A DNA stretch of 64,000 bases from Siphonodentalium dalli (taxonomy: Eukaryota; Mollusca; Scaphopoda; Gadilida; Siphonodentaliidae), in the NCBI GenBank assembly GCA_032622095.1, contig CP136068.1:48664443-48728442 (forward strand), written 5' to 3'. Shown in pieces: positions 34,138-64,000 of the stretch (positions are counted from its first letter, which is position 1; each line of letters starts with the position of its first letter). The notes beneath the pieces are model-generated. The model was not told the DNA's origin. It made no database searches and was given only the letters and a program-made list of their open reading frames with translations. Made by a program: the position numbers and the translations under genes.

Positions 34138-37082
34138 ATGAAAGTGTCAATGACACTGTAGCTCAACTTGGAAAGGGAATAATTTAATGTATTACAGTCA
34201 ATGGAGCGATTAGGAATGTGGAAAGTTGAATGTCTAATACTAGTTTATAGACATGAAGAGAAAAGTAAAATCCAAGATGGCTGCTGGCGGCCATGTTTTC
34301 GGCCGAATGATCCCAAAATGAGTCGTTCCCATATACATGTCATCGTTAACATCCATGACAAATTTTATGATGATCAGACTAAAGGTACGACCTGTACCCC
34401 ATGCTAAAGAATTTAGTCATACAAAGAGTAAAATCCAAGTTGGCTGCTGGCGGCCATGTTTTTGGGCCGAATGACTTCAAAATTACTCGTTCCCATCTAC
34501 ATGTCATTATTAACATTCATGACAAATTTTATGATGATCAGACTAAAAGTAGGACCTGTAGCCCGTGCTAAAGGATTTAGTCATACAAAGAGTAAAATCC
34601 AAGATGGCTGCAGGCGGCCATGTTTTTTGGCCGAATGACCCCAAAATGACTCGTTCCCATCTACATGTCATTATTAACATTCATGACAAATTTTATGATG
34701 ATCAGACTAAAAGTAGGACCTGTAGCCCGTGCTAAAGGATTTAGTCATACAAAGAGTAAAATCCAAGATGGCTGCTGGCGACCCTGTTTTTTGGCCGAAT
34801 GACCCCAAAATTACTCGTTCCCATCTACATGTCATTGTTAATATCCATGACAAATTTTATGATGATCAGACTAAAGGTACGACCTGCAGCCCGTGCTAAA
34901 GAATTTAGTCATACAAAGAGTAAAATCCAAGATGGCTGCTGGCGGCCATGTGTTTTGGCCGAATGACCCCAAAATTACTCGTTCCCATCTATATGTCAAT
35001 ATTAACATCCATGACAAATTTCATGATGATCAGACGAACAGTACGACATGTGGCCTGTGATAATGGATTAAATTTTGAAATCCAAGATGGCCGCTGGCGG
35101 CCATGTTTTTTATCCGAATGACCCCAAAATGACTCGTTCCCATCTATATTCCAATTTCAACAGTCATGACAAATTTTATGATGATCAGACTAAAGGTACG
35201 ACCTGTAGCCCGTGCTAAAGGATTTAGTCATACAAAGAGTAAAATCAAAGATGGCTGCTGGCGGCCATATTTTTTGGCCGAATGACCCCAAAACGACTCG
35301 TTCCCATCTACATGTCATTATTAACATTCATGACATATTTTATGATGATCAGACTAAAGGTACAAACTGTAGCCCGTGCTAAAGGATTTAGTCATACAAA
35401 GAGTAAAATCCAAGATGGCTGCTGGCGACCATGTTTTTTGGCCGAATGACCCCAAAATGACTCGTTCCCATCTACATGTCAATATTAACATCCATGACAA
35501 ATTTTATGATGATCAGACTAAAGGTACGACCTGCAGCCCGTGCTAAAGAATTTAGTCATACAAAGAGTAAAATCCAAGATGGCTGCTGGAGGCCATGTTT
35601 TTTGGCCGAATGACCCCAAAATTACTCGTTCCCATCTACATGTCAATATTATCATCCATGACAAATTTCATGATGATCAGACGAACAGTACGACCTGTGG
35701 CCCGTGCTAATGGATTAAATTTTGAAATCCAAGATGGCCACTGGCGGCCATGTTTTTTGTCCGAATGACCCCAAAATGACTCGTTCCCATCTACATTCCA
35801 ATTTCAACAGCCATGACAAATTTTATGATGATCAGACTAAAGGTACGACCTGTAGCCCGTACTAAAGGATTTAGTCATACAAAGAGTAAAATCCAAGATG
35901 GCTGCAGGCGGCCATGTTTTTTGGCCGAATGACCCCAAAATGACTCGTTCCCATCTACATGTCATTATTAACATTCATGACAAATTTTATGATGATCAGA
36001 CTAAAAGTAGGACCTGTAGCCCGTGCTAAAGGATTTAGTCATACAAAGAGTAAAATCCAAGATGGCTGCTGGCGACCATGTTTTTTGGCCGAATGACCCC
36101 AAAATTACTCGTTCCCATCTACATGTCATTGTTAATATCCATGACAAATTTTATGATGATCAGACTAAAGGTACGACCTGCAGCCCGTGCTAAAGAATTT
36201 AGTCATACAAAGAGTAAAATCCAAGATGGCTGCTGGCGGCCATGATTTTTGGCCGAATGACCCCAAAATTACTCGTTCCCATCTACATGTCAATATTATC
36301 ATCCATGACAAATTTCATGATGATCAGACGAATAGTACGACCTGTGGCCCGTGCTAATGGATTAAATTTTGAAATCCAAGATGGCCACTGGCGGCCATGT
36401 TTTTTGTCCGAATGACCCCAAAATGACTCGTTCCCATCTACATTCCAATTTCAACAGCCATGACAAATTTTATGATGATCAGACTAAAGGTACGACCTGT
36501 AGCCCGTGCTAAAGGATTTAGTCATACAAAGAGTAAAATTCAAGATGGCTGCTGGCGGCCATGTTTTTTGGCCGAATGACCCCAAAATGACTCGTTCCCA
36601 TCTACATGTCATTATTAACATTCTTGACAAATTTTATGATGATCAGAATAAAAGTACGACCTGTAGCCCGTGCTAAAGAATTTAGTCATACAAAGAGTAA
36701 AATCCAAGATGGCTGCTGGCGGCCATGTTTTTGGGCCGAATGACCCCAAAATTACTCGTTCCCATCTACATGTCAATATTAACATCCATGACAAATTTCA
36801 TGATGATCAGACGAACAGTACGGCCTGTAGCCCGTGCTAATGGATTGAATTTTGAAATCAAAGATGGCGGCTGGCGGCCATGTTTTTTTTTCGAATGACC
36901 CCAAAATTAATTGTTCTGGTCTAAATGTTGATGTCAACAGCTATGACAAATTTCATAATGATCCGACCAAAGGTACGACCTGTAGCCTGCATTGTTGACG
37001 CCTTACGTACGCACGCACACACGGACGACGGACGACAAAGCCATGGCAATAGCTCAAACTTTACAAAGTAAAGTTGAGCTAA
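34138..37082 (+). mobile_element. Helentron-like (HINE/pearl-type) element with tandem array
   Basis: The 5' end carries hairpin AGTGTCAATGACACT and then tAGCTCAACTT. The 3' end carries 'caatagctcaaa', the hairpin AACTTTACAAAGTAAAGTT and gagCTAA|T. The inner words agctcaactt and aagttgagct are subterminal inverted repeats. Between them are about 17 tandem ~163-bp units and a CACGGACGACGGAC microsatellite-like stretch just before the end. Bivalve pearl/HINE elements are known to have this layout (ends, ~160-bp core array, microsatellite, 3' hairpin), so this is probably the same class. No Rep/helicase coding. Confidence 0.65.
34260..36990 (+). repeat. ~163-bp tandem array with four-unit higher-order structure
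   Basis: Each unit contains 'aaatccaagatggctgctgg', cggccatgttttttggccga, 'gactcgttcccatctacatg' and 'tttatgatgatcagactaaa'. Units fall into types: A (ggcggcc), B (ggcgacc), C (followed by the fcatgatgatcagacgaa variant) and D (preceded by attaaattttgaaatcc, with 'ggcc.ctggcggcc'). Their order is A-B-C-D near 34,600/34,763/34,930/35,087, 35,250/35,415/35,580/35,735 and 35,900/36,060/36,225/36,380, then A-C-D. The higher-order period is ~645 bp. Confidence 0.8.
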
Positions 37083-46322: not shown

Positions 46323-46328
46323 GTCGTG
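46323..46328. repeat. Target-site duplication GTCGTG, left
   Basis: GTCGTG directly precedes the first base of the 8.37-kb palindrome and is repeated exactly at 54,701-54,706 directly after its last base. Confidence 0.8.
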
Positions 46329-46360
46329 AGAAGAATAGATGTCTCGTTAGACCCACATCT

Positions 46361-46590
46361 AAAAATAGAATCTTTGGTTCTAAAATTGGTTGTACTAAAA
46401 TATTCCTAAAATATCAAAAACCCAAAAAAAAAATTTCAAAACTTCAAAAAAATGTTTTTTCCAAAAAATTTCAAAAACCCTAAAATTAATTTTTTCCACA
46501 AAAAAATTCAAAACCTCCAAATTTCAAAAAAAGAAAAAATTTCAAAACCCTCAAAATTATTTCTCTAAAAAAAAAGGTTAAATAAAAAAT
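46361..46590. repeat. Outer terminal repeat of left arm (TTCAAAA-rich)
   Basis: 'tctaaaaatagaatctttgg' and 'ctaaaattggttgtactaaa' followed by ttcaaaa-type tandem words. The same block recurs in the same orientation at the inner end of the arm (from 50,198), and in mirror image at 50,630-50,822 and 54,430-54,672. Each arm is therefore bounded by direct repeats. Confidence 0.7.
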
Positions 46591-47520
46591 TTATAACGAG
46601 TTTTTTCGGTTTCTGATAATCTCGATATTAAAAAATATCGAATGTTAAATTATTTGCTCGTAATATCTTTCGTTATTTTTTTGTTCAAATATTTTTCATG
46701 AATTTATTAATCGATGTTTAGAAATAGCTTTATACCAATTATATGTGTATGGACAGTCGCTGTAATGTTGGACATTGTGACCAACGGTATGAATGCATAC
46801 ATTCCAGTGTTTAACGGACGCAGTTCATATAAGCGTCATACCTGAAAATAGACACCATTACTTTTTACATAAATAATAAAGAGCGTTTATTCTTTACTTA
46901 TCTCTATATGAAGTTATTGAGTATATGACAGGCGTGTATTTTCGTCAATTATTGGAAGTATTGAAATGTACTATGTTGAATTACTAACGGTCGAAAATGG
47001 TAAGGCGAAATTACAACCCTCCAGAATGAATTGTCATATTGAATGAATGATGATATAATCTCAGCCATTTTTACATGGAACATGAGCGATGTACACTCAA
47101 TCACACACGCCACATTGGTGTTAACAATGTGTCTTTCACACCTTTGCTTTACCAAATGAATTCTATTATTTCCCCGGTCACAGCTATATGGTATTCAGAA
47201 AACAAATCGATTTAGAACAAAACGAGTTAGTATCAATTAAGGTTGATAAACTGTGTCATTCACGCGATAATTAGTTATCCATAAAACATGCATACATATT
47301 AAGTCAGGTCGTGAGACACTCAATTATACAAATTGCTTTGATCACATTGTTATAACAACATTACGTAATAACCCCTTATCACTCCAGTCACACTTACGAT
47401 CATTTTGTATGCCGAAAACTCCAGGTAGCACCGATGATGTAACATTATATCACTGCTATTGTACCAATGATAAATTCAGACATGTTCCATGTTTAGAAAA
47501 ATAGATAATGTGCAGGTTAA

Positions 47521-47600
47521 GCCACAACAACAACAACAACAACAACAACAACATCCTGCTTTCATGATCCAATGGCCAATGTCCATGAAGATTTTATTTC
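47521..47600 (+). repeat. Embedded fragment of the element's own ATPase gene, left arm
   Basis: A CAA run followed by 'acatcctgctttcatgatcc' and 'aatggccaatgtccatgaag' copies the glutamine-tract boundary of the arm's gene, but in the opposite orientation to that gene. It is joined to a half copy of the 23.17-kb palindromic MITE (47,622-47,690). The mirror copy lies at 53,429-53,508. Confidence 0.75.
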
Positions 47601-47849
47601 CGATGCAAGTCATATTTCCGACTAACTCCTGAAAAGTTAGCTATAATTCTGCTGTGGTTAAGCAGTCCATTATTTAGGGCATACCTGTATGTAGGCCTAC
47701 CAGTGGATGAATAGTCTGCCGGAGAAGTACTGTGTAGACAGGTCTTGTCGGTAAGAGAGTCAGCCGAGAAATGAAGGCTCGGCTATTAAAACATAGTAAT
47801 GCGATAGCGAACATCAAACGAGTCTGCGCACGCATATCTGTCAAAGGAT

Positions 47850-47942
47850 ACAATGGCAGTCATTGGTCAATTTATCCCCGGTGTCAGCTCAGTACAATAG
47901 CAGTCATTGGTCAATTTATCCCCGGTGTCAGCTCAGTACACA
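47850..47942. repeat. Tandem duplication, ~47 bp
   Basis: 'gcagtcattggtcaatttat' plus 'ccccggtgtcagctcagtac' occurs twice in tandem, here and in mirror image in the right arm (about 53,085-53,180). Confidence 0.85.
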
Positions 47943-48288
47943 ATCGACACGAAGCCGGAGGTCATAATTACTCTTACGAATGAAGAGCGTTAAACATATA
48001 CGAAATTATTACACGAATGAACTGAAATTTATATTTCACATCTTACCAACAACAGATACAGACATGGTCATAGTGTTATATTATCTTACATGTACCCATG
48101 CTATGACATACTTAAAGGGGGATAATGCACACACGGAGTGTGGAATGTTAAAGTGACACGAGGTAAGGGACGTTATGTAATATTGGTGTGTGAATATTAA
48201 AGGAGCATTCTCGCTATACAAACCCCCCTCCCCACTTATAGATATATAACGAAGACGAGAATAACATGTTGATGAAGTTTATTGAAAT

Positions 48289-50091
48289 TTAATCATTGTC
48301 TGAATCTTCGACCGTTAGATTTACTGCTAAGAGTTTCTTGAATTTTCTCATCGCTTCATCTGCAGCCCATTCATTATTATATCCGCGTTTGGTCAGTTTG
48401 ACCATTTTCTTCATGATCGTGTTATGTATGGGTGATGTTTTCAATCGATACTGGTATTCTATTAATCGTCTATAACTTTTGAGAAACAGAACAAAATCTG
48501 TGTCGATGGTATCCTCTTTTCCCGACATGCTCTCATCTCCCGAAATGCTCTCTTCTTCTTTCACATCATTGGTGACGCGTTTCATCATACTTTTGAATGT
48601 GTCCATCTCGTTGACACATCGCGCAGCTTTCTTAAGACCGAATACCGTTCTACTACCGACGACATTACCATCTTTTGAATCTGATAGCGTTCCCCGTTCA
48701 TCTTCATCTGTATCTTCTCCGAAGAGAGTTGTTTTTGTCTCGGACATAGCTCCGTGTTCATCCGGATCCTCAGTTAATTTTCGTTTTAACTTATTTTCTT
48801 GACACCAGTTTTTTACGTGTCTCTGAACATCATAATGATCTGCGAACAAAAGCCCGCATTCATTACAAGGGTACGACATGTCTTCTTGAATGTCTCTGTT
48901 TTGATGGTTCTTCTTATTAATTTCATCGAGCTCACCAGGTGGCCGTATGTCGTTAGTATAGTCATTATGTTGACCCTGGGGCGCAATATAATTATATGTT
49001 ATGCCCTTCTGCTGACCGGGGAGTTCTCTGTCATCGTATTTCATCGCATTCTGTTGACCCTGGGTCTCAGTGTCTTTTGTATGTTTTTTCATCCCATTCT
49101 GTTCATCTGGGTGTTCTCTGTCTTTTTGGAGATTATATTTCATGCCATTCCATTCACCCCTATGTTGGTTCGTGTCCTCTTTTAGTACATTCTGTCGCAG
49201 ACGTAATGCGTCCGGTGTTGCGGCTTTTAAATCCACCAGTAGGTAACCGTACGGTTCACTCGTCGCTTCCGAAAACTCTCGAACCATACGCTGAGGACAT
49301 TCAGGATACATCTGTCTTGATAATGTTGAAATTAATCCCTTGTCGATTGGGTTATTGAACAATACCAAATATTGACAATTTCGTCGTTGCGTTGGATCTT
49401 TGTTGTAGTAGAAATTCTGGTTCAAACTTATCAAAGATAAGTTCAAATGGTGACTTCCTTCGGAATGCAAATCATTAACTCTCTGGTCTTTTGATGAAGT
49501 TTGCATCAAGTCATCGAGTATAACTAGATTTTTATACCGGGGGTTGATAAGAGAATCCAAGTTTGCTGGTATTCCTCGTATAAAGTTGACCTGAGGGGTG
49601 ACTGTATACTTTAATTCGTCATATAGGGGCTGCCAATATTTATAAAACCATATTATTCTGTCAGGTGCGGGTGATATTTTTGAGGCAGACTTTTGTAGCA
49701 AGGTTTTCACGAAGTATGTCTTACCACAAGATGTAGGTCCACTTACACATGCCGTGAATGGATGCTTGAAAATAAAATCTTCATGGACATTGGCCATTGG
49801 ATCATTAAAGCAGGATGTTATGTCGCTTGGTGGCTGTTGTTGTTGTTGTTGTTGTTGTTGGTGGTGTTGTTGTTGTTGTTGTTGTTGTTGTGGCTGATGA
49901 TACTGTTGTTGTTGTTGTTGTTGTTGTGGCTGATGATACTGCTGCCTGTTGCTGCTACTGTCTGTTGCTGTTGCATGGTGCTGCTGCTGTGGTTGTCGGT
50001 TAACAAACTCAGTGTGCTTATATTGTACATGTCTTATCAAATCATGGTTCCGCACATACCCCCTAGAGCAAATTGAACACTGGTGCTTCAT
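48289..50091 (-). CDS. Zinc-finger P-loop ATPase, left arm (Polinton-like element)
   Basis: A whole 600-residue open frame. Domains in order: an N-terminal C2H2 finger (CSICSRGYV...H...H, residues 4-26); glutamine/histidine-rich tract (about 33-92); P-loop ATPase with Walker A GPTSCGKT (about residue 117) and Walker B NLVILDDLM; a second finger (YPCNECGLLF, about 420) of C2HC type; an acidic region; and a basic C-terminal helix region. The ATPase segment HPFTACVSGPTSCGKT with IIWFYKYWQPLYDEL resembles the DNA-packaging-type (FtsK/HerA, A32-like) ATPases of Polintons and adintoviruses; that is recognition from memory, not a search result. Transcription runs away from the GC-rich centre. AATAAA on the coding strand lies directly after the stop (48,278-48,283). 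Confidence 0.8.
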   Translation of the reverse strand: MKHQCSICSRGYVRNHDLIRHVQYKHTEFVNRQPQQQHHATATDSSSNRQQYHQPQQQQQQQQYHQPQQQQQQQQHHQQQQQQQQQPPSDITSCFNDPMANVHEDFIFKHPFTACVSGPTSCGKTYFVKTLLQKSASKISPAPDRIIWFYKYWQPLYDELKYTVTPQVNFIRGIPANLDSLINPRYKNLVILDDLMQTSSKDQRVNDLHSEGSHHLNLSLISLNQNFYYNKDPTQRRNCQYLVLFNNPIDKGLISTLSRQMYPECPQRMVREFSEATSEPYGYLLVDLKAATPDALRLRQNVLKEDTNQHRGEWNGMKYNLQKDREHPDEQNGMKKHTKDTETQGQQNAMKYDDRELPGQQKGITYNYIAPQGQHNDYTNDIRPPGELDEINKKNHQNRDIQEDMSYPCNECGLLFADHYDVQRHVKNWCQENKLKRKLTEDPDEHGAMSETKTTLFGEDTDEDERGTLSDSKDGNVVGSRTVFGLKKAARCVNEMDTFKSMMKRVTNDVKEEESISGDESMSGKEDTIDTDFVLFLKSYRRLIEYQYRLKTSPIHNTIMKKMVKLTKRGYNNEWAADEAMRKFKKLLAVNLTVEDSDND

Positions 50092-50384
50092 TTATACTTG
50101 ACTAAAATGTCTCGGTATTTCAAAATGTACAAGTCACTCTTTTTTCTGCATTTTATTTTAGAAAGTTTATCGTCTCTTATAAAAATCGATTATTGCATCT
50201 AAAAATAGAATCTTTGGGTCTAAAATTGGTTGTACTAAAATATTCCCAAAAACCCAAAACTTCAAAAATTTCAAAAAACTTCAAAAATTTCAAAAAACTT
50301 CAAAAATTTCAAAAACTTCAAAAATTTCAAAAATTTCAAAAACTTCAAAAAACTTCAAAAATTTCTAAAACTTCAAAAATAAGA

Positions 50385-50640
50385 CCCCGGCGGCGGCGGC
50401 GGCGGCGGCATTGCGGTAATGCCGGTATTTGCCGCCGGCGGCGGCGGCGGCATTGCGGTAATGCCGGTATTTGCCGCCGGCGGCGGCGGCATTGCGGTAT
50501 TTTACTGCGGGGGTCCGTCGGCGGCGGACCCCGGCGGCGGCTGCGGCACCGCCGCCGCCGCAGTAAAATACCGCAATGCCGCCGCCGCCGGCGGCAAATA
50601 CCGGCATTACCGCAATGCCGCCGCCGCCGCCGCCGTCTTA
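50385..50640. repeat. GGC/GCC-rich centre of the palindrome
   Basis: (GGC)n runs alternate with 'attgcggtaatgccggtatt' units on the left and their complement on the right, around a ggtccgtcggcggcggaccc apex. The left side carries more copies of the unit than the right, so the centre is not perfectly symmetric. It is CpG-rich and lies between the two divergent gene starts, so it may work as a shared promoter (inference). Confidence 0.8.
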
Positions 50641-50928
50641 TTTTTGAAGTTTTAGAAATTTTTGAAGTTTTTTGAAGTTTTTGAAATTTTTGAAATTTTT
50701 GAAGTTTTTGAAATTTTTGAAGTTTTTTGAAATTTTTGAAGTTTTTTGAAATTTTTGAAGTTTTGGGTTTTTGGGAATATTTTAGTACAACCAATTTTAG
50801 ACCCAAAGATTCTATTTTTAGATGCAATAATCGATTTTTATAAGAGACGATAAACTTTCTAAAATAAAATGCAGAAAAAAGAGTGACTTGTACATTTTGA
50901 AATACCGAGACATTTTAGTCAAGTATAA

Positions 50929-51128
50929 ATGAAGCACCAGTGTTCAATTTGCTCTAGGGGTTATGTGCGGAACCATGATTTGATAAGACATGTACAATAT
51001 AAGCACACTGAGTTTGTTAACCGACAACCACAGCAGCAGCACCATGCAACAGCAACAGACAGTAGCAGCAACAGGCAGCAGTATCATCAGCCACAACAAC
51101 AACAACAACAACAACAGTATCATCAGCC

Positions 51129-51164
<36 letters not shown>

Positions 51165-52740
51165 CCACCAACAACAACAACAACAACAACAACAGCCACC
51201 AAGCGACATAACATCCTGCTTTAATGATCCAATGGCCAATGTCCATGAAGATTTTATTTTCAAGCATCCATTCACGGCATGTGTAAGTGGACCTACATCT
51301 TGTGGTAAGACATACTTCGTGAAAACCTTGCTACAAAAGTCTGCCTCAAAAATATCACCCGCACCTGACAGAATAATATGGTTTTATAAATATTGGCAGC
51401 CCCTATATGACGAATTAAAGTATACAGTCACCCCTCAGGTCAACTTTATACGAGGAATACCAGCAAACTTGGATTCTCTTATCAACCCCCGGTATAAAAA
51501 TCTAGTTATACTCGATGACTTGATGCAAACTTCATCAAAAGACCAGAGAGTTAATGATTTGCATTCCGAAGGAAGTCACCATTTGAACTTATCTTTGATA
51601 AGTTTGAACCAGAATTTCTACTACAACAAAGATCCAACGCAACGACGAAATTGTCAATATTTGGTATTGTTCAATAACCCAATCGACAAGGGATTAATTT
51701 CAACATTATCAAGACAGATGTATCCTGAATGTCCTCAGCGTATGGTTCGAGAGTTTTCGGAAGCGACGAGTGAACCGTACGGTTACCTACTGGTGGATTT
51801 AAAAGCCGCAACACCGGACGCATTACGTCTGCGACAGAATGTACTAAAAGAGGACACGAACCAACATAGGGGTGAATGGAATGGCATGAAATATAATCTC
51901 CAAAAAGACAGAGAACACCCAGATGAACAGAATGGGATGAAAAAACATACAAAAGACACTGAGACCCAGGGTCAACAGAATGCGATGAAATACGATGACA
52001 GAGAACTCCCCGGTCAGCAGAAGGGCATAACATATAATTATATTGCGCCCCAGGGTCAACATAATGACTATACTAACGACATACGGCCACCTGGTGAGCT
52101 CGATGAAATTAATAAGAAGAACCATCAAAACAGAGACATTCAAGAAGACATGTCGTACCCTTGTAATGAATGCGGGCTTTTGTTCGCAGATCATTATGAT
52201 GTTCAGAGACACGTAAAAAACTGGTGTCAAGAAAATAAGTTAAAACGAAAATTAACTGAGGATCCGGATGAACACGGAGCTATGTCCGAGACAAAAACAA
52301 CTCTCTTCGGAGAAGATACAGATGAAGATGAACGGGGAACGCTATCAGATTCAAAAGATGGTAATGTCGTCGGTAGTAGAACGGTATTCGGTCTTAAGAA
52401 AGCTGCGCGATGTGTCAACGAGATGGACACATTCAAAAGTATGATGAAACGCGTCACCAATGATGTGAAAGAAGAAGAGAGCATTTCGGGAGATGAGAGC
52501 ATGTCGGGAAAAGAGGATACCATCGACACAGATTTTGTTCTGTTTCTCAAAAGTTATAGACGATTAATAGAATACCAGTATCGATTGAAAACATCACCCA
52601 TACATAACACGATCATGAAGAAAATGGTCAAACTGACCAAACGCGGATATAATAATGAATGGGCTGCAGATGAAGCGATGAGAAAATTCAAGAAACTCTT
52701 AGCAGTAAATCTAACGGTCGAAGATTCAGACAATGATTAA
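50929..52740 (+). CDS. Zinc-finger P-loop ATPase, right arm (Polinton-like element)
   Basis: A whole 603-residue open frame, the mirror copy of the gene at 48,289-50,091. It differs visibly only in a glutamine tract three residues longer. Same order: C2H2 finger, Q-rich tract, Walker A GPTSCGKT, Walker B ILDDLM, NQNFYYNKDP sensor-like segment, C2HC finger, acidic region, basic C-terminus. AATAAA at 52,746-52,751 begins five bases after the stop. Start chosen at the ATG giving MKHQCSICSRG, conserved in both arms. Two intact copies suggest recent duplication or continuing conversion between arms. Confidence 0.8.
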
Positions 52741-53428
52741 ATTTCAATAAACTTCATCAACATGTTATTCTCGTCTTCGTTATATATCTATAAGTGGGGA
52801 GGGGGGTTTGTATAGCGAGAATGCTCCTTTAATATTCACACACCAATATTACATAACGTCCCTTACCTCGTGTCACTTTAACATTCCACACTCCGTGTGT
52901 GCATTATCCCCCTTTAAGTATGTCATAGCATGGGTACATGTAAGATAATATAACACTATGACCATGTCTGTATCTGTTGTTGGTAAGATGTGAAATATAA
53001 ATTTCAGTTCATTCGTGTAATAATTTCGTATATGTTTAACGCTCTTCATTCGTAAGAGTAATTATGACCTCCGGCTTCGTGTCGATTGTGTACTGAGCTG
53101 ACACCGGGGATAAATTGACCAATGACTGCTATTGTACTGAGCTGACACCGGGGATAAATTGACCAATGACTGCCATTGTATCCTTTGACAGATATGCGTG
53201 CGCAGACTCGTTTGATGTTCGCTATCGCATTACTATGTTTTAATAGCCGAGCCTTCATTTCTCGGCTGACTCTCTTACCGACAAGACCTGTCTACACAGT
53301 ACTTCTCCGGCAGACTATTCATCCACTGGTAGGCCTACATACAGGTATGCCCTAAATAATGGACTGCTTAACCACAGCAGAATTATAGCTAACTTTTCAG
53401 GAGTTAGTCGGAAATATGACTTGCATCG

Positions 53429-53508
53429 GAAATAAAATCTTCATGGACATTGGCCATTGGATCATGAAAGCAGGATGTTGTTGTTGTTGTTGTTGTTGTT
53501 GTTGTGGC
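53429..53508 (-). repeat. Embedded ATPase-gene fragment, right arm
   Basis: Mirror copy of the fragment at 47,521-47,600, again opposite to the arm's gene and again joined to a half copy of the palindromic MITE. Confidence 0.75.
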
Positions 53509-54700
53509 TTAACCTGCACATTATCTATTTTTCTAAACATGGAACATGTCTGAATTTATCATTGGTACAATAGCAGTGATATAATGTTACATCATCGGTG
53601 CTACCTGGAGTTTTCGGCATACAAAATGATCGTAAGTGTGACTGGAGTGATAAGGGGTTATTACGTAATGTTGTTATAACAATGTGATCAAAGCAATTTG
53701 TATAATTGAGTGTCTCACGACCTGACTTAATATGTATGCATGTTTTATGGATAACTAATTATCGCGTGAATGACACAGTTTATCAACCTTAATTGATACT
53801 AACTCGTTTTGTTCTAAATCGATTTGTTTTCTGAATACCATATAGCTGTGACCGGGGAAATAATAGAATTCATTTGGTAAAGCAAAGGTGTGAAAGACAC
53901 ATTGTTAACACCAATGTGGCGTGTGTGATTGAGTGTACATCGCTCATGTTCCATGTAAAAATGGCTGAGATTAAATCATCATTCATTCAATATGACAATT
54001 CATTCTGGAGGGTTGTAATTTCGCCTTACCATTTTCGACCGTTAGTAATTCAACATAGTACATTTCAATACTTCCAATAATTGACGAAAATACACGCCTG
54101 TCATATACTCAATAACTTCATATAGAGATAAGTAAAGAATAAACGCTCTTTATTATTTATGTAAAAAGTAATGGTGTCTATTTTCAGGTATGACGCTTAT
54201 ATGAACTGCGTCCGTTAAACACTGGAATGTATGCATTCATACCGTTGGTCACAATGTCCAACATTACAGCGACTGTCCATACACATATAATTGGTATAAA
54301 GCTATTTCTAAACATCGATTAATAAATTCATGAAAAATATTTGAACAAAAAAATAACGAAAGATATTACGAGCAAATAATTTAACATTCGATATTTTTTA
54401 ATATCGAGATTATCAGAAACCGAAAAAACTCGTTATAAATTTTTTATTTAACCTTTTTTTTTAGAGAAATAATTTTGAGGGTTTTGAAATTTTTTCTTTT
54501 TTTGAAATTTGGAGGTTTTGAATTTTTTTGTGGAAAAAATTAATTTTAGGGTTTTTGAAATTTTTTGGAAAAAAATTTTTTTTGAAGTTTTGAAATTTTT
54601 TTTTTGGGTTTTTGATATTTTAGGAATATTTTAGTACAACCAATTTTAGACCCAAAGATTCTATTTTTAGATGTGGGTCTAACGAGACATCTATTCTTCT

Positions 54701-54706
54701 GTCGTG
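54701..54706. repeat. Target-site duplication GTCGTG, right
   Basis: Exact repeat of the six bases at 46,323-46,328, immediately outside the right terminus CTATTCTTCT. Confidence 0.8.
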
Positions 54707-56361: not shown

Positions 56362-56959
56362 TTTTTTGTCCAGCAAGGTGAAGGTTAGTCGAAAATCTAC
56401 GGGATACTAAAGATATCCCGTCGAAATTTCCCCCATGCCTGGCAACGGAGCTTTTTCTTCAAGTCCGGAAAGGAAGAATATGACACAAGATACGACCAAA
56501 CCGCGATGTTTCCCGGGTAATACATGTGCTACTGCATCACCGTGACATACCTTTCATCTTCCTTTTCCAAAAAAGAGACATTTATCGAGCATTTTGTGGC
56601 GAGGAGGCGGCCGATTTCAAACATGGTTGTGTTCGATCGAACGTCCGGTCACACCACACGGCGCTATCGTGGGAACAAGTCATTTCGTATCCTGACCAGC
56701 TCGTACCCTCCGAAAAAAGTCAACTCGTACCCTATTCTGAGTCAACTAAGGCGTGCGTTCAGTTTCTCATCTAATAACTTTGCTTATCTTATTTTTCACA
56801 TTGATTGAACATACTATGGAACCCACAGTGATCTCCTGGACGTAAAAGATACATAAATAGAACAGAAACATGCATGATCTCTTGGATGTAAAAGATACAG
56901 AAGTGGAACAGAAACATGCCTATATATATATACATACAAATAAAATAAAATAAACACAC

Positions 56960-57180
56960 TTACCTGTTTTCAATCGTCGTATTCCATCACGATGTGCCGT
57001 GTCGTAATCCAGTCTCTCATCTAATAACATAAATTAGTCCACCCTGCTTTAGGGAATGGGTCCTGGGTCTTTACCATTGGGAAACAAATTGCGTCATAGA
57101 GGTTTACACTTAATTGGTAATGTCTATGACCCATAACGATTATAGTATGGAAAGTTGTCAGTGTGAAGATAGTGTAATCA
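56960..57180 (-). pseudogene. Degraded inverted copy of the 58.48-kb exon
   Basis: The complement contains a splice-donor-like 'ttgaaaacag|gtaagt', 'gattacgacacggcacatcg' and 'tttgattacactatcttcac', matching the exon in the right arm. Small length differences break the frame here, while the right-arm copy stays open, so this is the decayed partner. Confidence 0.55.
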
Positions 57181-57358
57181 AATACTGTGATGTATATTAT
57201 ATTTCCAATAAAAACATCAAAACAATATTATACATAATTATGACCAACCAAAACAAAAGGAAGAATATGTTCATATATAATATTCACCACAGGCTCACGC
57301 GTTTGCCAATCGCACATACATTCCCTAAAACAGAAACTGCAGCAGTTGCAGGTGCACC

Positions 57359-57451
57359 CTAATGAACAACAATGTCGATATCAGGGATGTCCATCCCCAT
57401 ACCAAAAGCTATCATAGCGACAAGAACTCGCGTATTTCCATCTCTGAAATT
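57359..57451 (-). pseudogene. RecQ-like helicase fragment, motif V region
   Basis: After 'attcatatcag' the minus strand reads NFRDGNTRVLVAMIAFGMGM then DIPDIDIVVH, the motif V-VI approach of RecQ helicases (VLVAT.AFGMGID..D...V.H.G.P). A TAG stop at 57,359-57,361 sits where RecQ proteins have an aromatic residue before GAP; the frame continues as GAPATAAV. The downstream arginine-finger region (SGRAGRDG) is absent. Broken gene fragment. Confidence 0.65.
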
Positions 57452-58053
57452 CTGATATGAATATAGAATAAATTAACACGTACTATAAGTGATGTTTGTT
57501 GCCACAATTGTTTTGAATGACTTTATTGTATTTATAAACTATTATAAGACAAAGCATTTGAGAACAAGTTGTTTTCTTACTCGTGAATTTAACTGATTGC
57601 CAATGCATGATTGAATGATGAAACGTGAATTACTAATATATCATAGACCTAGTATACATTATGATTGGGTTCACATAGTATCATTGTGGCAGTGTACATG
57701 AACTTTCGTAGAGCAATTTTTTGGCCAAGCACCCCCTGTGTGGCGCCCCCAGCTCGTGTCTCGGATGATATATTAATTGTGCCCAATTGTCCATAAATGC
57801 CCACTACGCCCCTGTTTTCACATACATACACATACCAACTTCATCAATCGTGGCAATAAGCCATTCCATTTACACATATATTATAATACACATAAGCATA
57901 CAACCACTCCTTAATTATCCATACACCCCACACAAGATCATACATCCAGCCAACACATGTATACAAATACACCCATCCATGACAATAAAGCCACCCAATT
58001 TCGCGGAATTGACGGAAGATACTAAGGTGCCCAATTGGATAACTCATACCAAC

Positions 58054-58308
58054 CTTATTCAAAATTAATGGCGACAAAATATAACACATTGATTTCCCGT
58101 AACCAGTGGGCAAGAATGACACACATCTTCTCCACTTGACATCTAGCTGTTTGTCCTTCAAACTAGTAGCAAACATATTGGCACATATGTCTGAGAGGCT
58201 TGATTTGAGGAGGCGGTGGTGGCTCGCAAACCACGAAAGAAGAAGAAATAAAAACTCAGTTTTACACATGTTTTTGTGTTTTTCTGATAATATTTTTGTA
58301 TTATACAC
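58054..58308 (-). pseudogene. RecQ-like helicase fragment, motif I region
   Basis: The minus strand encodes SLKDKQLDVKWRRCVSFLPT followed by GYGKSMCYILSPLILNK, an ATP-binding Walker A (LPTGYGKS) in RecQ context, ending at AAG|GTTGGT, a possible donor. The helicase motifs between this piece and the motif V fragment (DEAH and others) are not present in the 600 bp between them. It is thus a partial capture or decayed copy, not a working helicase. Confidence 0.65.
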
Positions 58309-58483
58309 TTGATGGCTACACTTGGTATCGAACGATTACAGTCCATTTGGGCGAATAGGGAAAGCATACAGTTGTAAGAAAACTGTCCATTCCCATTTCC
58401 CAAATTCACGGAAAAGAAGAAAAATAGATCTGTCCCTTCCATTTACAAGATTTTCAAGTCTTCATACTTAATTTACATAACAG

Positions 58484-58696
58484 CATTTGATTACACTATC
58501 TGCACACTGACAGCTCTCCGTTCTATAATCGCCATAGCCATTACAGAGTGTAAACCTCTATGGCGCAATTTGTTTTCCAATGGTAAAGACCCAGGACCCA
58601 TTCCTTACAACAGGGTGGACAAATTTATAACGTTATTAGATGAGAAACTGGATTACGACACGGCGCATCGTGATGGAATTCGACGATTGAAAACAG
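58484..58696 (+). CDS. Exon-like segment in the right arm
   Basis: 213 nt (2+210+1, phase 1-1) between 'aatttacataacag' and ACAG|GTAAGT. The peptide includes FDYTICTLTALRSIIAIAIT, ECKPLWRNLFSNGKDPGPIP, YNRVDKFITLLDEKLDYDTA and HRDGIRRLKT. No family was recognised. The open frame plus consensus splice sites suggest a genuine exon, either from the element's own gene or captured. It is opposite in strand to the RecQ fragments. Confidence 0.45.
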
Positions 58697-59231
58697 GTAA
58701 GTATGTTTATTTTATTTTATTTGTATGTATATGTAGGCATGTTTCTGTTCTATTTATGCATCTTTTACGTCCAGGAGATCACTGTGGGTTCCATAGTACG
58801 TTCAAATCCGGTGAAAAAATAAGATAAGCAAAGTTATTAGATGAGAAACTGAACGCACGCTTTAGTTGACTCAGAATAGGGTACGAGTTGACTTTTTTCG
58901 GAGGGTACGAGCTGGTCAGGATACGAAATGACTTGTTCCCACGATAGCGCCGTGTGGTGTGACCGGACGTTCGATCGAACACAACCATGTTTGAAATTGG
59001 CCGCCTCCTCGCCACAAAATGCTCGATAAATGTCTCTTTTTTGGAAAAGGAAGATGAAAGGTATGTCAGGGTGATGCAGTAGCACATGTATTACCCGGGA
59101 AACATCGCGGTTTGGTCGTATCTTGCGTCATATTCTTCCTTTCCGGACTTGAAGAAAAAGCTCCGTTACCAGCGATGGGGAAAGTTGGACTATACATTCA
59201 ATGTATAGTCAATTTTGGACTAGGTGAAGGT

Positions 59232-60012: not shown

Positions 60013-63000
60013 AGTGGATGTTCTCCAGTGGTGTGTGTAAAACTGAACAAATTAGTGAAATTTTATATTTAACAGCATCCATATCATATGATTTGGAGTA
60101 AACAATATTTATTTCAACAAATCAAACATAATATGACACAAACACAATATACATGAAGAAATATATAGATTTATGAAGAGGATTGGACAACAAGCAAAAT
60201 GCTTTTTTAAAGTCCTCTCCTCATGGAATAAATGTTACCTCAAGTGACAAAAATATCACTTGGGGTAAAGCAGACGGGATATATAGATCACAGTTCAGGT
60301 TGCTGCAACCTAATCTGATACGAGTATGATATATTTGGGCTTTCCTGGAATAACACTGAAGATAAAAATTTGCAATTTTCGCACGGTTAATGTTTAGTTT
60401 ACGCTTAAATTGTTTGACGATTTTATTGAATTCGAAAAATTCATATGATTTGACATCTTAAAGCACTGAATCTTGCACATTTCATTGCAGCAACATTCGA
60501 ATCAACAAATTATATCATTACTATTAACATGGAATGCATTGCTATGCTTCCAAATCCTTCCACTGTTGGTTTCATGCTAGAAACTTGTAAATTATCACCC
60601 CCTGAGTGACATTGAAAACATCCCTGGCTCCACAAATGGCTGTTATCTATGGTGTTTTGGTAAATTTTATCATCAGTGACATTGTTTCTTCTTAGAATTG
60701 CCAATTGTGTGTTGATATTGAATGCATTATTAGTTCTGAGGAGTGGATGTTCTCCAGTGGTGTGTGTAAAACTGAACAAATTAGTGATATTTAACAGCAT
60801 CCATAATTCCATATCATATGATTTGACATCTTAAAGCACTGAATCTTGCACATTTCATTGCAGCAACATTCGAATCAACAAATTATATCATTATTATTAA
60901 CATGGAATGCATTGATATGCTTCCAAATCTGTCCACTGTTGGTGTCATGCTAGAAAATTGTAAATTATCACCCCCTGAGTGACATTGAAAACATCCCTGG
61001 CTCCACAAATGGCTGTTATCTATGGTGTTTTGGTAAATTTTATCATCAGTGACATAGTTTCTTCTTAGAATTGCCAATTGTGTGATGATATTGAATGCAT
61101 TATTAGTTCTGAGGAGTGGATGTTCTCCAGTGGTGTGTGTAAAACTGAACAAATTAGTGAAATTTTATATTTAACAGCATCCATATATCATATGATTTGA
61201 CATCTTAAAGCACTGAATCTTGCACATTTCATTGCAGCAACATTCGAATCAACAAATTATATCATTACTATTAACATGGAATGCATTGATATGCTTCCAA
61301 ATCTTTCCACTGTTGGTTTCATGCTAGAAAATTGTAAATTATCACCCCCTGAGTGACATTGAAAACATCCCTGGCTCCACAAATGGCTGTTATCTATGGT
61401 GTTTTGGTAAATTTTATCATCAGTGACATTGTTTCTTCTTAGAATTGCCAATTGTGTGATGATATTGAATGCATTATTAGTTCTGAGGAGTGGATGTTCT
61501 CCAGTGGTGTGTGTAAAACTGAACAAATTAGTGATATTTAACAGCATCCATAATTCCATATCATATGATTTGACATCTTAAAGCACTGAATCTTGCACAT
61601 TTCATTGCAGCAACATTCGAATCAACAAATTATATCATTACTATTAACATGGAATGCATTGATATGCTTCCAAATCTTTCCACTGTTGGTGTCATGCTAG
61701 AAAATTGTAAATTATCACCCCCTGAGTGACATTGAAAACATCCCTGGCTCCACAAATGGCTGTTATCTATGGTGTTTTGGTAAATTTTAGCATCAGTGAC
61801 ATTGTTTCTTCTTAGAATTGCCAATTGTGTGTTGATATTGAATGCATTATTAGTTCTGAGGAGTGGATGTTCTCCAGTGGTGTGTGTAAAACTGAACAAA
61901 TTAGTGATATTTAACAGCATCCATAATTCCATATCATATGATTTGACATCTTAAAGCACTGAATCTTGCACATTTCATTGCAGCAACATTCGAATCAACA
62001 AATTATATCATTACTATTAACATGGAATGCATTGATATGCTTCCAAATCTTTCCACTGTTGGTGTCATGCTAGAAAATTGTTAATTATCACCCCCTGAGT
62101 GACATTGAAAACATCCCTGGCTCCACAAATGGCTGTTATCTATGGTGTTTTGGTAAATTTTAGCATCAGTGACATTGTTTCTTCTTAGAATTGCCAATTG
62201 TGTGTTGATATTGAATGCATTATTAGTTCTGAGGAGTGGATGTTCTCCAGTGGTGTGTGTAAAACTGAACAAATTAGTGAAATTTAATATTTAACAGCAT
62301 CCATATATCATATGATTTGATATCTTAAAGCACTGAATCTTGCACATTTCATTGCAGCAACATTCGAATCAACAAATTATATCATTACTATTAACATGGC
62401 ATGCATTGATATGCTTCCAAATCTTTCCACTGTTGGTTTCATGCTAGAAAATTGTAAATTATCACCCCCTGAGTGACATTGAAAACATCCCTGGCTCCAC
62501 AAATGGCTGTTATCTATGGTGTTTTGGTAAATTTTATCATCAGTGACATAGTTTCTTCTTAGAATTGCCAATTGTGTGATGATATTGAATGCATTATTAG
62601 TTCTGAGGAGTGGATGTTCTCCAGTGGTGTGTGTAAAACTGAACAAATTAGTGATATTTAACAGCATCCATAATTCCATATCATATGATTTGACATCTTA
62701 AAGCACTGAATCTTGCACATTTCATTGCAGCAACATTCGAATCAACAAATTATATCATTACTATTAACATGGAATGCATTGCTATGCTTCCAAATCTTTC
62801 CACTGTTGGTTTCATGCTAGAAAATTGTAAATTATCACCCCCTGAGTGACATTGAAAACATCCCTGGCTCCACAAATGGCTGTTATCTATGGTGTTTTGG
62901 TAAATTTTAGCATCAGTGACATTGTTTCTTCTTAGAATTGCCAATTGTGTGTTGATATTGAATGCATTATTAGTTCTGAGGAGTGGATGTTCTCCAGTGG

Positions 63001-64000
63001 TGTGTGTATAACTGAACAAATTAGTGATATTTAACAGCATCCATAATTCTATATCATATGATTTGACATCTTAAAGCACTGAATCTTGCACATTTCATTG
63101 CAGCAACATTCGAATCAACAAATTATATCATTACTATTAACATGGAATGCATTGATATGCTTCCAAATCTTTCCACTGTTGGTGTCATGCTAGAAAATTG
63201 TTAATTATCACCCCCTGAGTGACATTGAAAACATCCCTGGCTCCACAAATGGCTGTTATCTATGGTGTTTTGGTAAATTTTAGCATCAGTGACATTGTTT
63301 CTTCGTAGAATTGCCAATTGTGTGTTGATATTGAATGCATTATTAGTTCTGAGGAGTGGATGTTCTCCAGTGGTGTGTGTAAAACTGAACAAATTAGTGA
63401 TATTTAACAGCATCCATAATTCCATATCATATGATTTGACATCTTAAAGCACTGAATCTTGCACATTTCATTGCAGCAACATTCGAATCAACAAATTATA
63501 TCATTACTATTAACATGGAATGCATTGATATGCTTCCAAATCTTTCCACTGTTGGTGTCATGCTAGAAAATTGTTAATTATCACCCCCTGAGTGACATTG
63601 AAAACATCCCTGGCTCCACAAATGGCTGTTATCTATGGTGTTTTGGTAAATTTTAGCATCAGTGACATTGTTTCTTCTTAGAATTGCCAATTGTGTGTTG
63701 ATATTGAATGCATTATTAGTTCTGAGGAGTGGATGTTCTCCAGTGGTGTGTGTAAAACTGAACAAATTAGTGAAATTTAATATTTAACAGCATCCATATA
63801 TCATATGATTTGATATCTTAAAGCACTGAATCTTGCACATTTCATTGCAGCAACATTCGAATCAACAAATTATATCATTACTATTAACATGGCATGCATT
63901 GCTATGCTTCCAAATCTTTCCACTGTTGGTTTCATGCTAGAAAATTGTAAATTATCACCCCCTGAGTGACATTGAAAACATCCCTGGCTCCACAAATGGC
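60013..64000. repeat. ~373-bp satellite array, runs off the window
   Basis: About ten units with landmarks 'ggaatgcattgatatgcttc', 'caccccctgagtgacattga', 'tggctccacaaatggctgtt', 'gtggatgttctccagtggtg' and 'catttcattgcagcaacatt'. Unit starts are spaced 373-374 bp from 60,510 onward. A partial unit at 60,013-60,094 is separated from the rest by an insertion. The complement has a ~100-codon open frame in most units, but several units have an early stop and the period is not a multiple of three, so it is treated as non-coding satellite. Two variants (ccaatatat-type and ccataattcc-type junctions) are interspersed. Confidence 0.9.
60095..60440. mobile_element. 346-bp insertion in the satellite, 11-bp duplication
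   Basis: A satellite unit is interrupted at TCATATGATTT (60,084-60,094), which is repeated at 60,441-60,451 where the array resumes. The insert begins ggagtaaacaatatttattt and contains a stem-loop ACCTCAAGTGA...TCACTTGGGGT (about 60,237-60,268). No TIR or poly-A tail seen; class unknown. Confidence 0.6.

Follow-up and report, generated by a model that had tools for sequence, protein, structure and literature searches.

A palindromic element with Polinton-type ends and an A32-like ATPase gene in the scaphopod Siphonodentalium dalli, probably a Polinton satellite

Polintons (Mavericks) are thought to be transposons and viruses both, and their traits include 6-bp target site duplications, AG ends, capsid proteins, a protease and a packaging ATPase of the FtsK/HerA/A32 kind. 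To our knowledge, their replication and packaging have been inferred mostly from gene content. Other elements live on borrowed functions: foldback elements and miniature inverted-repeat transposable elements (MITEs) are non-autonomous, consist mostly of inverted repeat without coding capacity and are mobilised in trans, while the phage satellites P4 and the phage-inducible chromosomal islands (PICIs) redirect packaging. A passage of PMC4028283 describes Polintons as replicons that encode an RVE integrase and a protein-primed PolB, and PMC6431247 gives their length as 15–25 kb. Here we describe a palindromic element in a 64,000-nt stretch of the S. dalli genome, hereafter the window (assembly GCA_032622095.1, contig CP136068.1, forward strand positions 48,664,443 to 48,728,442). 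With a probability of about 75%, we read the element as a non-autonomous satellite, palindromic in structure, of a Polinton family, with one copy in the window, a strand that folds on itself and with PolB and integrase supplied in trans.

The element shares with Polintons the 6-bp duplications, the AG...CT ends and long terminal inverted repeats (TIRs) that are common to PolB-bearing elements of ∼16 kb in the same genome. It differs in being half the size and palindromic, and in carrying a single ATPase gene twice, in mirror image, with no PolB or integrase open reading frame (ORF) seen. The known Polinton length is reached by the ∼16-kb relatives but not by the palindromes, and a frame that matches PolB (PF03175) is likewise present in these relatives and not in the palindrome. 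A literature search of titles and abstract openings, which is not proof of absence and did not extend to Repbase, returned no description of palindromic Polinton satellites.

The palindrome and its copies in the genome

The element is a near-perfect palindrome of 8,372 bp at positions 46329–54700 of the window (mirror sum 101029). It has AG...CT termini and reads AGAAGAATAG...CTATTCTTCT. The first-pass annotation of the window had placed the outer ends of the inverted repeat at a 6-bp duplication, GTCGTG, and this was confirmed in the sequence. The palindrome it had reported at 46323–54706 is thus real, but that span includes the duplication. Comparison of 46329–49890 with 51139–54700 gave four mismatches (46378, 46453, 46454, and 47055), and indels shift the polyglutamine (polyQ) tract and the centre out of mirror register. 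Arm-to-arm differences numbered 14 in one count and 4 when the polyQ tract and the centre were left out. An ungapped arm measures 3,616 nt at 99% identity. The spacer between the two ATGs (50092–50928) is also nearly palindromic, leaving 41 nt between the innermost listed arms. The two divergent genes of the first-pass annotation are present: each arm has one long ORF that points outward from the centre with an AATAAA just past its stop. Besides these two, the palindrome has no ORF above 160 aa, none of the size of an RVE integrase and no further long one for a PolB, capsid protein or protease (shorter ORFs were not compared with families). The features are as follows.

46323–46328, no strand: left copy of the target site duplication GTCGTG, read from the sequence
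54701–54706, no strand: right copy of the target site duplication GTCGTG, read from the sequence
46329–54700, no strand: whole palindromic element, 8,372 bp
46329–47517, plus strand: left TIR; its counterpart in a 16-kb PolB element is homologous (91.9%) as far as bp 1,141
53512–54700, minus strand: right TIR, mirror of 46329–47517
46329–46358, plus strand: terminal tip with two short copy-variable blocks, equal at both ends of one copy bar rare single-base exceptions
47524–47599, plus strand: junction of TIR and passenger, with (CAA)n and a duplicated ATPase-gene segment that is 85% identical to 49770–49855 and 51174–51259; mirror at 53430–53505
48289–50091, minus strand: ATPase ORF of 600 aa with a C2H2 finger, polyQ, an A32-like P-loop ATPase and a second, weaker C2H2-like match (family matches taken from the mirror copy)
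50929–52740, plus strand: ATPase ORF of 603 aa, mirror copy, with AATAAA at 52746–52751 past the stop
50196–50378, plus strand: second, inner copy of the tip region of the TIR, diverged (77%) and lacking the last 27 bp; mirrored at 50642–50824
50498–50570, plus strand: central core, a stem closed by two small hairpins (predicted Y or T shape)

The window belongs to an assembly of 2.23 Gb in nine contigs (C1, C2, C5, and C7 among them). The first-pass annotation had proposed a search of this genome for further copies, and many near-identical ones were indeed found, beyond the reach of a single window. Among 20 further loci of 10 kb each (L021–L040), 16 hold complete palindromes with lengths of 8.25–8.57 kb. 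In 15 of the 16 the palindrome is flanked by an exact 6-bp duplication that is different at each locus, and the remaining one has GATATT/GATAAT. With the window included, all 17 complete copies have a 6-bp duplication (16 exact, one with a mismatch). At L021, L026, L038, and L039 the 10-kb stretch shows an interrupted right end or none at all. Because of the arm length and the recurrence at other loci, a chance origin of the palindrome is excluded. It is generally known that palindromes arise during amplification and assembly. An assembly artefact or simple chromosomal inverted duplication is nevertheless a negligible prospect, and we rejected it on the recurrence of complete palindromes with their own duplications elsewhere.

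Using the ATPase protein as query against the genome, we found at least 73 matches, 96–100% identical and mostly in divergent pairs with ORF starts ∼2.6–2.8 kb apart. An inner stop is absent from 64 of the 73 matches listed. The ATPase domain as query gave at least 150 matches, and all 150 listed are at least 99% identical. These copy numbers are lower bounds; only the best candidates were scored and more distant relatives are not shown. Like foldback elements and MITEs, the satellite would be non-autonomous, made mostly of inverted repeat and mobilised in trans; unlike them, it has an ORF of ∼600 aa, mostly uninterrupted as counted above, and Polinton ends.

At C2:166228293-166241284 two ATPase pairs of the 96–97% group share one orientation at a distance of 8.55 kb. 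Each of the four ORFs has one TAG, which would fit a duplication that followed insertion; the positions of the stops were not compared.

Ends shared with PolB elements of about 16 kb

A 92-bp terminal query gave 40 scored matches, which resolve into 16 inverted pairs of less than 10 kb, the window among them, three of 16.4 kb and two unpaired matches. A terminal pattern was found 538 times in forward and 516 times in reverse orientation across the genome, and not once with the reversed pattern as control. The first 100 places listed, all on contig C1, form 44 inverted pairs of 3.1–17.4 kb. Matches to PF03175 (DNA polymerase B) with open frames, mostly of ∼952 aa, lie inside elements of ∼16 kb. 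Among the PolB matches listed, one was present in 6 of the 10 C1 pairs of 15.6–17.4 kb and in none of the 34 shorter pairs. Two of the three 16.4-kb pairs (C5:183549662-183566025 and C7:116486934-116503331) also contain a PolB match, and the third (C2:369427-385795) has none among the matches listed. The C5 element is flanked by the 6-bp duplication AACAAA. Judged by their sequence, the ends of the palindrome are Polinton-type. The first-pass annotation had assigned them so, and the ∼16-kb elements with the same termini and an open PolB frame, one of them with its own 6-bp duplication, bear it out. These elements also support its proposal of a non-autonomous element probably dependent on another one. 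The palindrome may rely on the integrase of that other element.

The C5 element allowed us to delimit the shared part. Its TIRs are at least 1,121 bp long, and left and right are 99.7% identical over the 1,121 bp compared. Its homology to the palindrome arms ends at its bp 1,141, with 97.5% identity to the copy at L030 and 91.9% to the window. On the side of the window it spans 1.19 kb at the outer end of the arm, up to 47517. The idea of the first-pass annotation that the TIR had consumed the whole element is therefore not supported: the palindrome is not all TIR, because homology to the TIR of the PolB element is confined to this outer part, and the inner ∼3 kb is passenger DNA with its own history. 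Each arm consists of a Polinton-type TIR of 1.19 kb and, further in, a passenger of ∼3 kb that carries an A32-like, zinc-finger ATPase gene. The (CAA)n and ATPase-gene piece at 47524–47599 may represent a rearrangement scar.

The two parts of the arm have different histories. Divergence between copies is 2.4–11.5% in TIR segments versus 0.20–0.21% in the passenger, with a step at arm position ∼1,190. The TIR of the C5 element differs from those of the 17 satellites at 18–60 of 1,082 columns, and the satellite TIRs differ among themselves at 7–78 (mean 46), which places the C5 TIR within the diversity of the satellites. With divergent TIRs and a near-uniform passenger, we therefore conclude that the passenger is young and is joined to many different TIR variants from a common pool.

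A different origin would be a snapback of the defective-interfering type, in which a Polinton end, comprising the TIR and the packaging ATPase gene of that Polinton, folded back on itself and gave a palindrome when copied. In that case the satellite would derive from part of its helper. Polinton TIR does make up the outer 1.19 kb of each arm, a passage of PMC4028283 counts a packaging ATPase among the normal Polinton genes, and snapback genomes are a major class of adeno-associated virus (AAV) defective particles according to PMC8235507. However, the left end of the C5 element passes from the common stretch into 307 bp without a match in the window, no ATPase was seen within 17 kb of a PolB among the matches listed (checked by eye, per contig; the nearest at ∼113 kb), and the passenger is young while the TIRs are diverse. 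We therefore consider this origin unlikely, with the reservation that the C5 element was read over 2.6 kb and a close or diverged ATPase may yet be present in its remainder. The satellite has in common with AAV snapbacks a self-complementary genome, mirror gene copies and a probable dependence on an intact relative. The AAV snapbacks, again according to PMC8235507, derive from the virus itself, whereas the satellite is a dispersed family of insertions, and the helper ends that were sampled showed no match to its passenger.

Two further arrangements were noted among the shared ends and PolB genes. At C1:159746518-159783981, six tips in the same orientation, all of one identical variant, follow each other at ∼5.3–5.4 kb and are succeeded by one inverted tip, which is perhaps a tandem array of partial elements. 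Among the PolB matches listed there is also a second type with open frames mostly of 1,312–1,330 aa, which may belong to another lineage of Polintons in this genome.

Likeness of the two arms and the central predicted hairpin

The arms of one copy differ from each other at 0–5 of 3,384 columns, and from the nearest other copy at 7–29. Accordingly, the two arms of a copy are sisters in a tree in 17 of 17 cases (support 0.90–1.0, no value for two). The same holds for the tips. Among the 44 C1 pairs the two variable tip blocks occur in 36 combinations, and yet the variant is equal at both ends in 42 pairs (full match by chance ∼0.03); the two exceptions are single-base substitutions. As arms and tips are matched within copies, either one end was copied from the other or a single template served for both, within the lifetime of each copy. 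In 2 of the 17 copies (L033 and L037) one end exceeds the other by exactly AGA, which is what slippage at a protein-primed origin would produce. A jump back along a triplet repeated at the terminus is known from adenovirus.

Long chromosomal inverted repeats are generally known to convert each other, and the palindrome might have been inherited and inserted as it is, its arms being kept alike by chromosomal gene conversion alone and with no folded replication form. We find this quite unlikely. Tips 16 kb apart match equally well (identical in 5 of the 6 PolB-bearing C1 pairs and one base off in the sixth), and one-armed lesions persist in L029 and L034, each of which has one broken and one open ORF. 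Both points weigh against gene conversion and neither is decisive.

At the symmetry centre, a 73-nt core (50498–50570) inside a longer stem is predicted to fold with two small hairpins of 8 and 9 bp, a feature absent from the first-pass annotation. The single-strand DNA prediction for the window gave –86.1 kcal/mol with a z of –14.7. The core is present in all 21 loci (window and L021–L040) and is predicted to be two-armed on at least one strand in 19; the exceptions are L027, with a 59-nt core that lacks part of one arm, and L030, with a substitution. A genome-wide search for the core that tolerated at most two mismatches gave 82 occurrences, and its control gave none. It lies within ∼50 bp of the midpoint in 10 of the 16 pairs of less than 10 kb obtained with the terminal query and in none of the three 16.4-kb pairs (compared by hand).

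This shape raises the alternative of a self-sufficient, parvovirus-like rolling-hairpin replicon with the ATPase as replication helicase. The predicted two-armed core resembles the AAV terminal repeat, a stem with two small hairpins at its tip in a passage of PMC11575299, and the ATPase has a weak RNA_helicase match that falls under the cut-off. The likeness is one of predicted shape, the sequences not having been compared. Parvoviruses have terminal hairpins and a Rep/NS1 gene, whereas here the hairpin is central, a family search of the ATPase ORF gave no match to a Rep or polymerase family, and the ends are Polinton TIRs. We hold such a replicon to be very improbable.

The ATPase gene and a possible route of propagation

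The ORF has a C2H2 finger before the P-loop domain and a weaker one after it. A homology search, which the first-pass annotation had recommended for placing the ATPase, matched the protein to Pox_A32 (PF04665) with 25.3 bits for the whole protein and 28.9 bits for the domain (cut-off 22.8). A match to adenovirus IVa2 reached 17.0 bits, under the cut-off of 21. Both A32 and IVa2 are packaging proteins in their viruses. In a search for relatives of the ATPase, two stretches in IMG/VR fitted a pattern and none was confirmed, and no relatives were found in phages. A sequence search of the PDB gave nine weak matches (E 0.016–0.93), all of them in the polyQ and zinc-finger regions and outside the ATPase domain, and a single-sequence AlphaFold model of the domain had a pLDDT of 33.5. 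The genome also has a separate, abundant A32-like family, seen as 227-aa frames in most of the 150 Pox_A32 matches listed, many of them equal-scoring; by eye, none of the matches listed lies inside a PolB element.

Variants present on both arms comprise 8 synonymous and 5 nonsynonymous changes, and one-arm variants 7 and 9, respectively. These counts leave out L031 and L037, where the start motif was missed, and the short ORFs of L021 right, L029 left and L034 right. The ratio of nonsynonymous to synonymous rates (dN/dS) is 0.21 between copies and 0.67 within copies (from 3 and 8 changes). For the both-arm variants a binomial test gave p 0.001–0.02 at assumed neutral synonymous fractions of 0.2–0.3. 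Strong selection as judged from 0.21% divergence in coding versus 1.2% in noncoding DNA was dropped, as that contrast is the one between TIR and passenger.

Returning to the satellite, we suggest the following route. A Polinton would supply PolB and integrase in trans, and PolB, protein-primed, would start at the AGAAGA ends. The displaced, self-complementary strand could then fold over its whole length into a ∼4.2-kb hairpin, with the conserved two-armed tip closing it. Replication via this folded form, by mismatch repair or by re-copying of the hairpin, would keep the arms alike in each new copy, and recombination with Polinton TIRs on the folded molecule would renew both ends together. Finally, the Polinton integrase would insert the product and thereby duplicate 6 bp at the target site. 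The ATPase would most likely act as a packaging-type motor that helps the satellite to use Polinton-made particles or to handle its own hairpin DNA, and this is the weakest step.

In its most far-reaching form, which we put forward tentatively and regard as doubtful, the proposal is one of eukaryotic capsid pirates: palindromic Polinton satellites with a long self-complementary strand and an AAV-like two-armed tip, with ends renewed from the TIR pool of the helper and with their own zinc-finger packaging ATPase, which would load the hairpin genome into helper particles. They would resemble PICIs and P4 as small elements on helper machinery with a packaging-type gene of their own, but they are eukaryotic and piracy is suggested here by the ATPase gene alone. 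If the ATPase does direct packaging, this would be strong evidence for Polinton particles. The family may also serve as a natural assay, in which arm identity, tip slippage and TIR exchange would report on the copying of Polinton DNA.

Several observations weigh against a Polinton satellite replicating in this way. The ∼16-kb elements were sampled in one case (C5), over 2.6 kb, and 4 of the 10 long C1 pairs are without a PolB among the matches listed (69 candidates scored). No integrase was seen by eye in the 16-kb elements among the rve matches listed, a list filled by other integrases. The core is found in only 3 of the 34 shorter C1 pairs, so that the elements with these ends form a larger community than the ATPase palindromes that carry it. 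Signs of selection on the ATPase are mixed and no more than suggestive, because divergence in its coding part (0.211%) does not fall below that in the noncoding DNA of the passenger (0.197%). Finally, gene conversion after insertion could have produced the identity of the arms.

Other repeats lie elsewhere in the window. At 56425–59186 there is an inverted-repeat pair with 372-nt arms that are 98% alike, with no clear duplication at its outer ends; an inner ORF (57844–58308) has the motif LPTGYGKS, which we take to be helicase-like. A satellite array with a 373-bp unit (9.5 copies, 96% matches) begins at 60441 and runs to the end of the window at 64000. A tandem array with a 164-bp unit, for which a period of 483 bp was called too, occupies 34264–36987.

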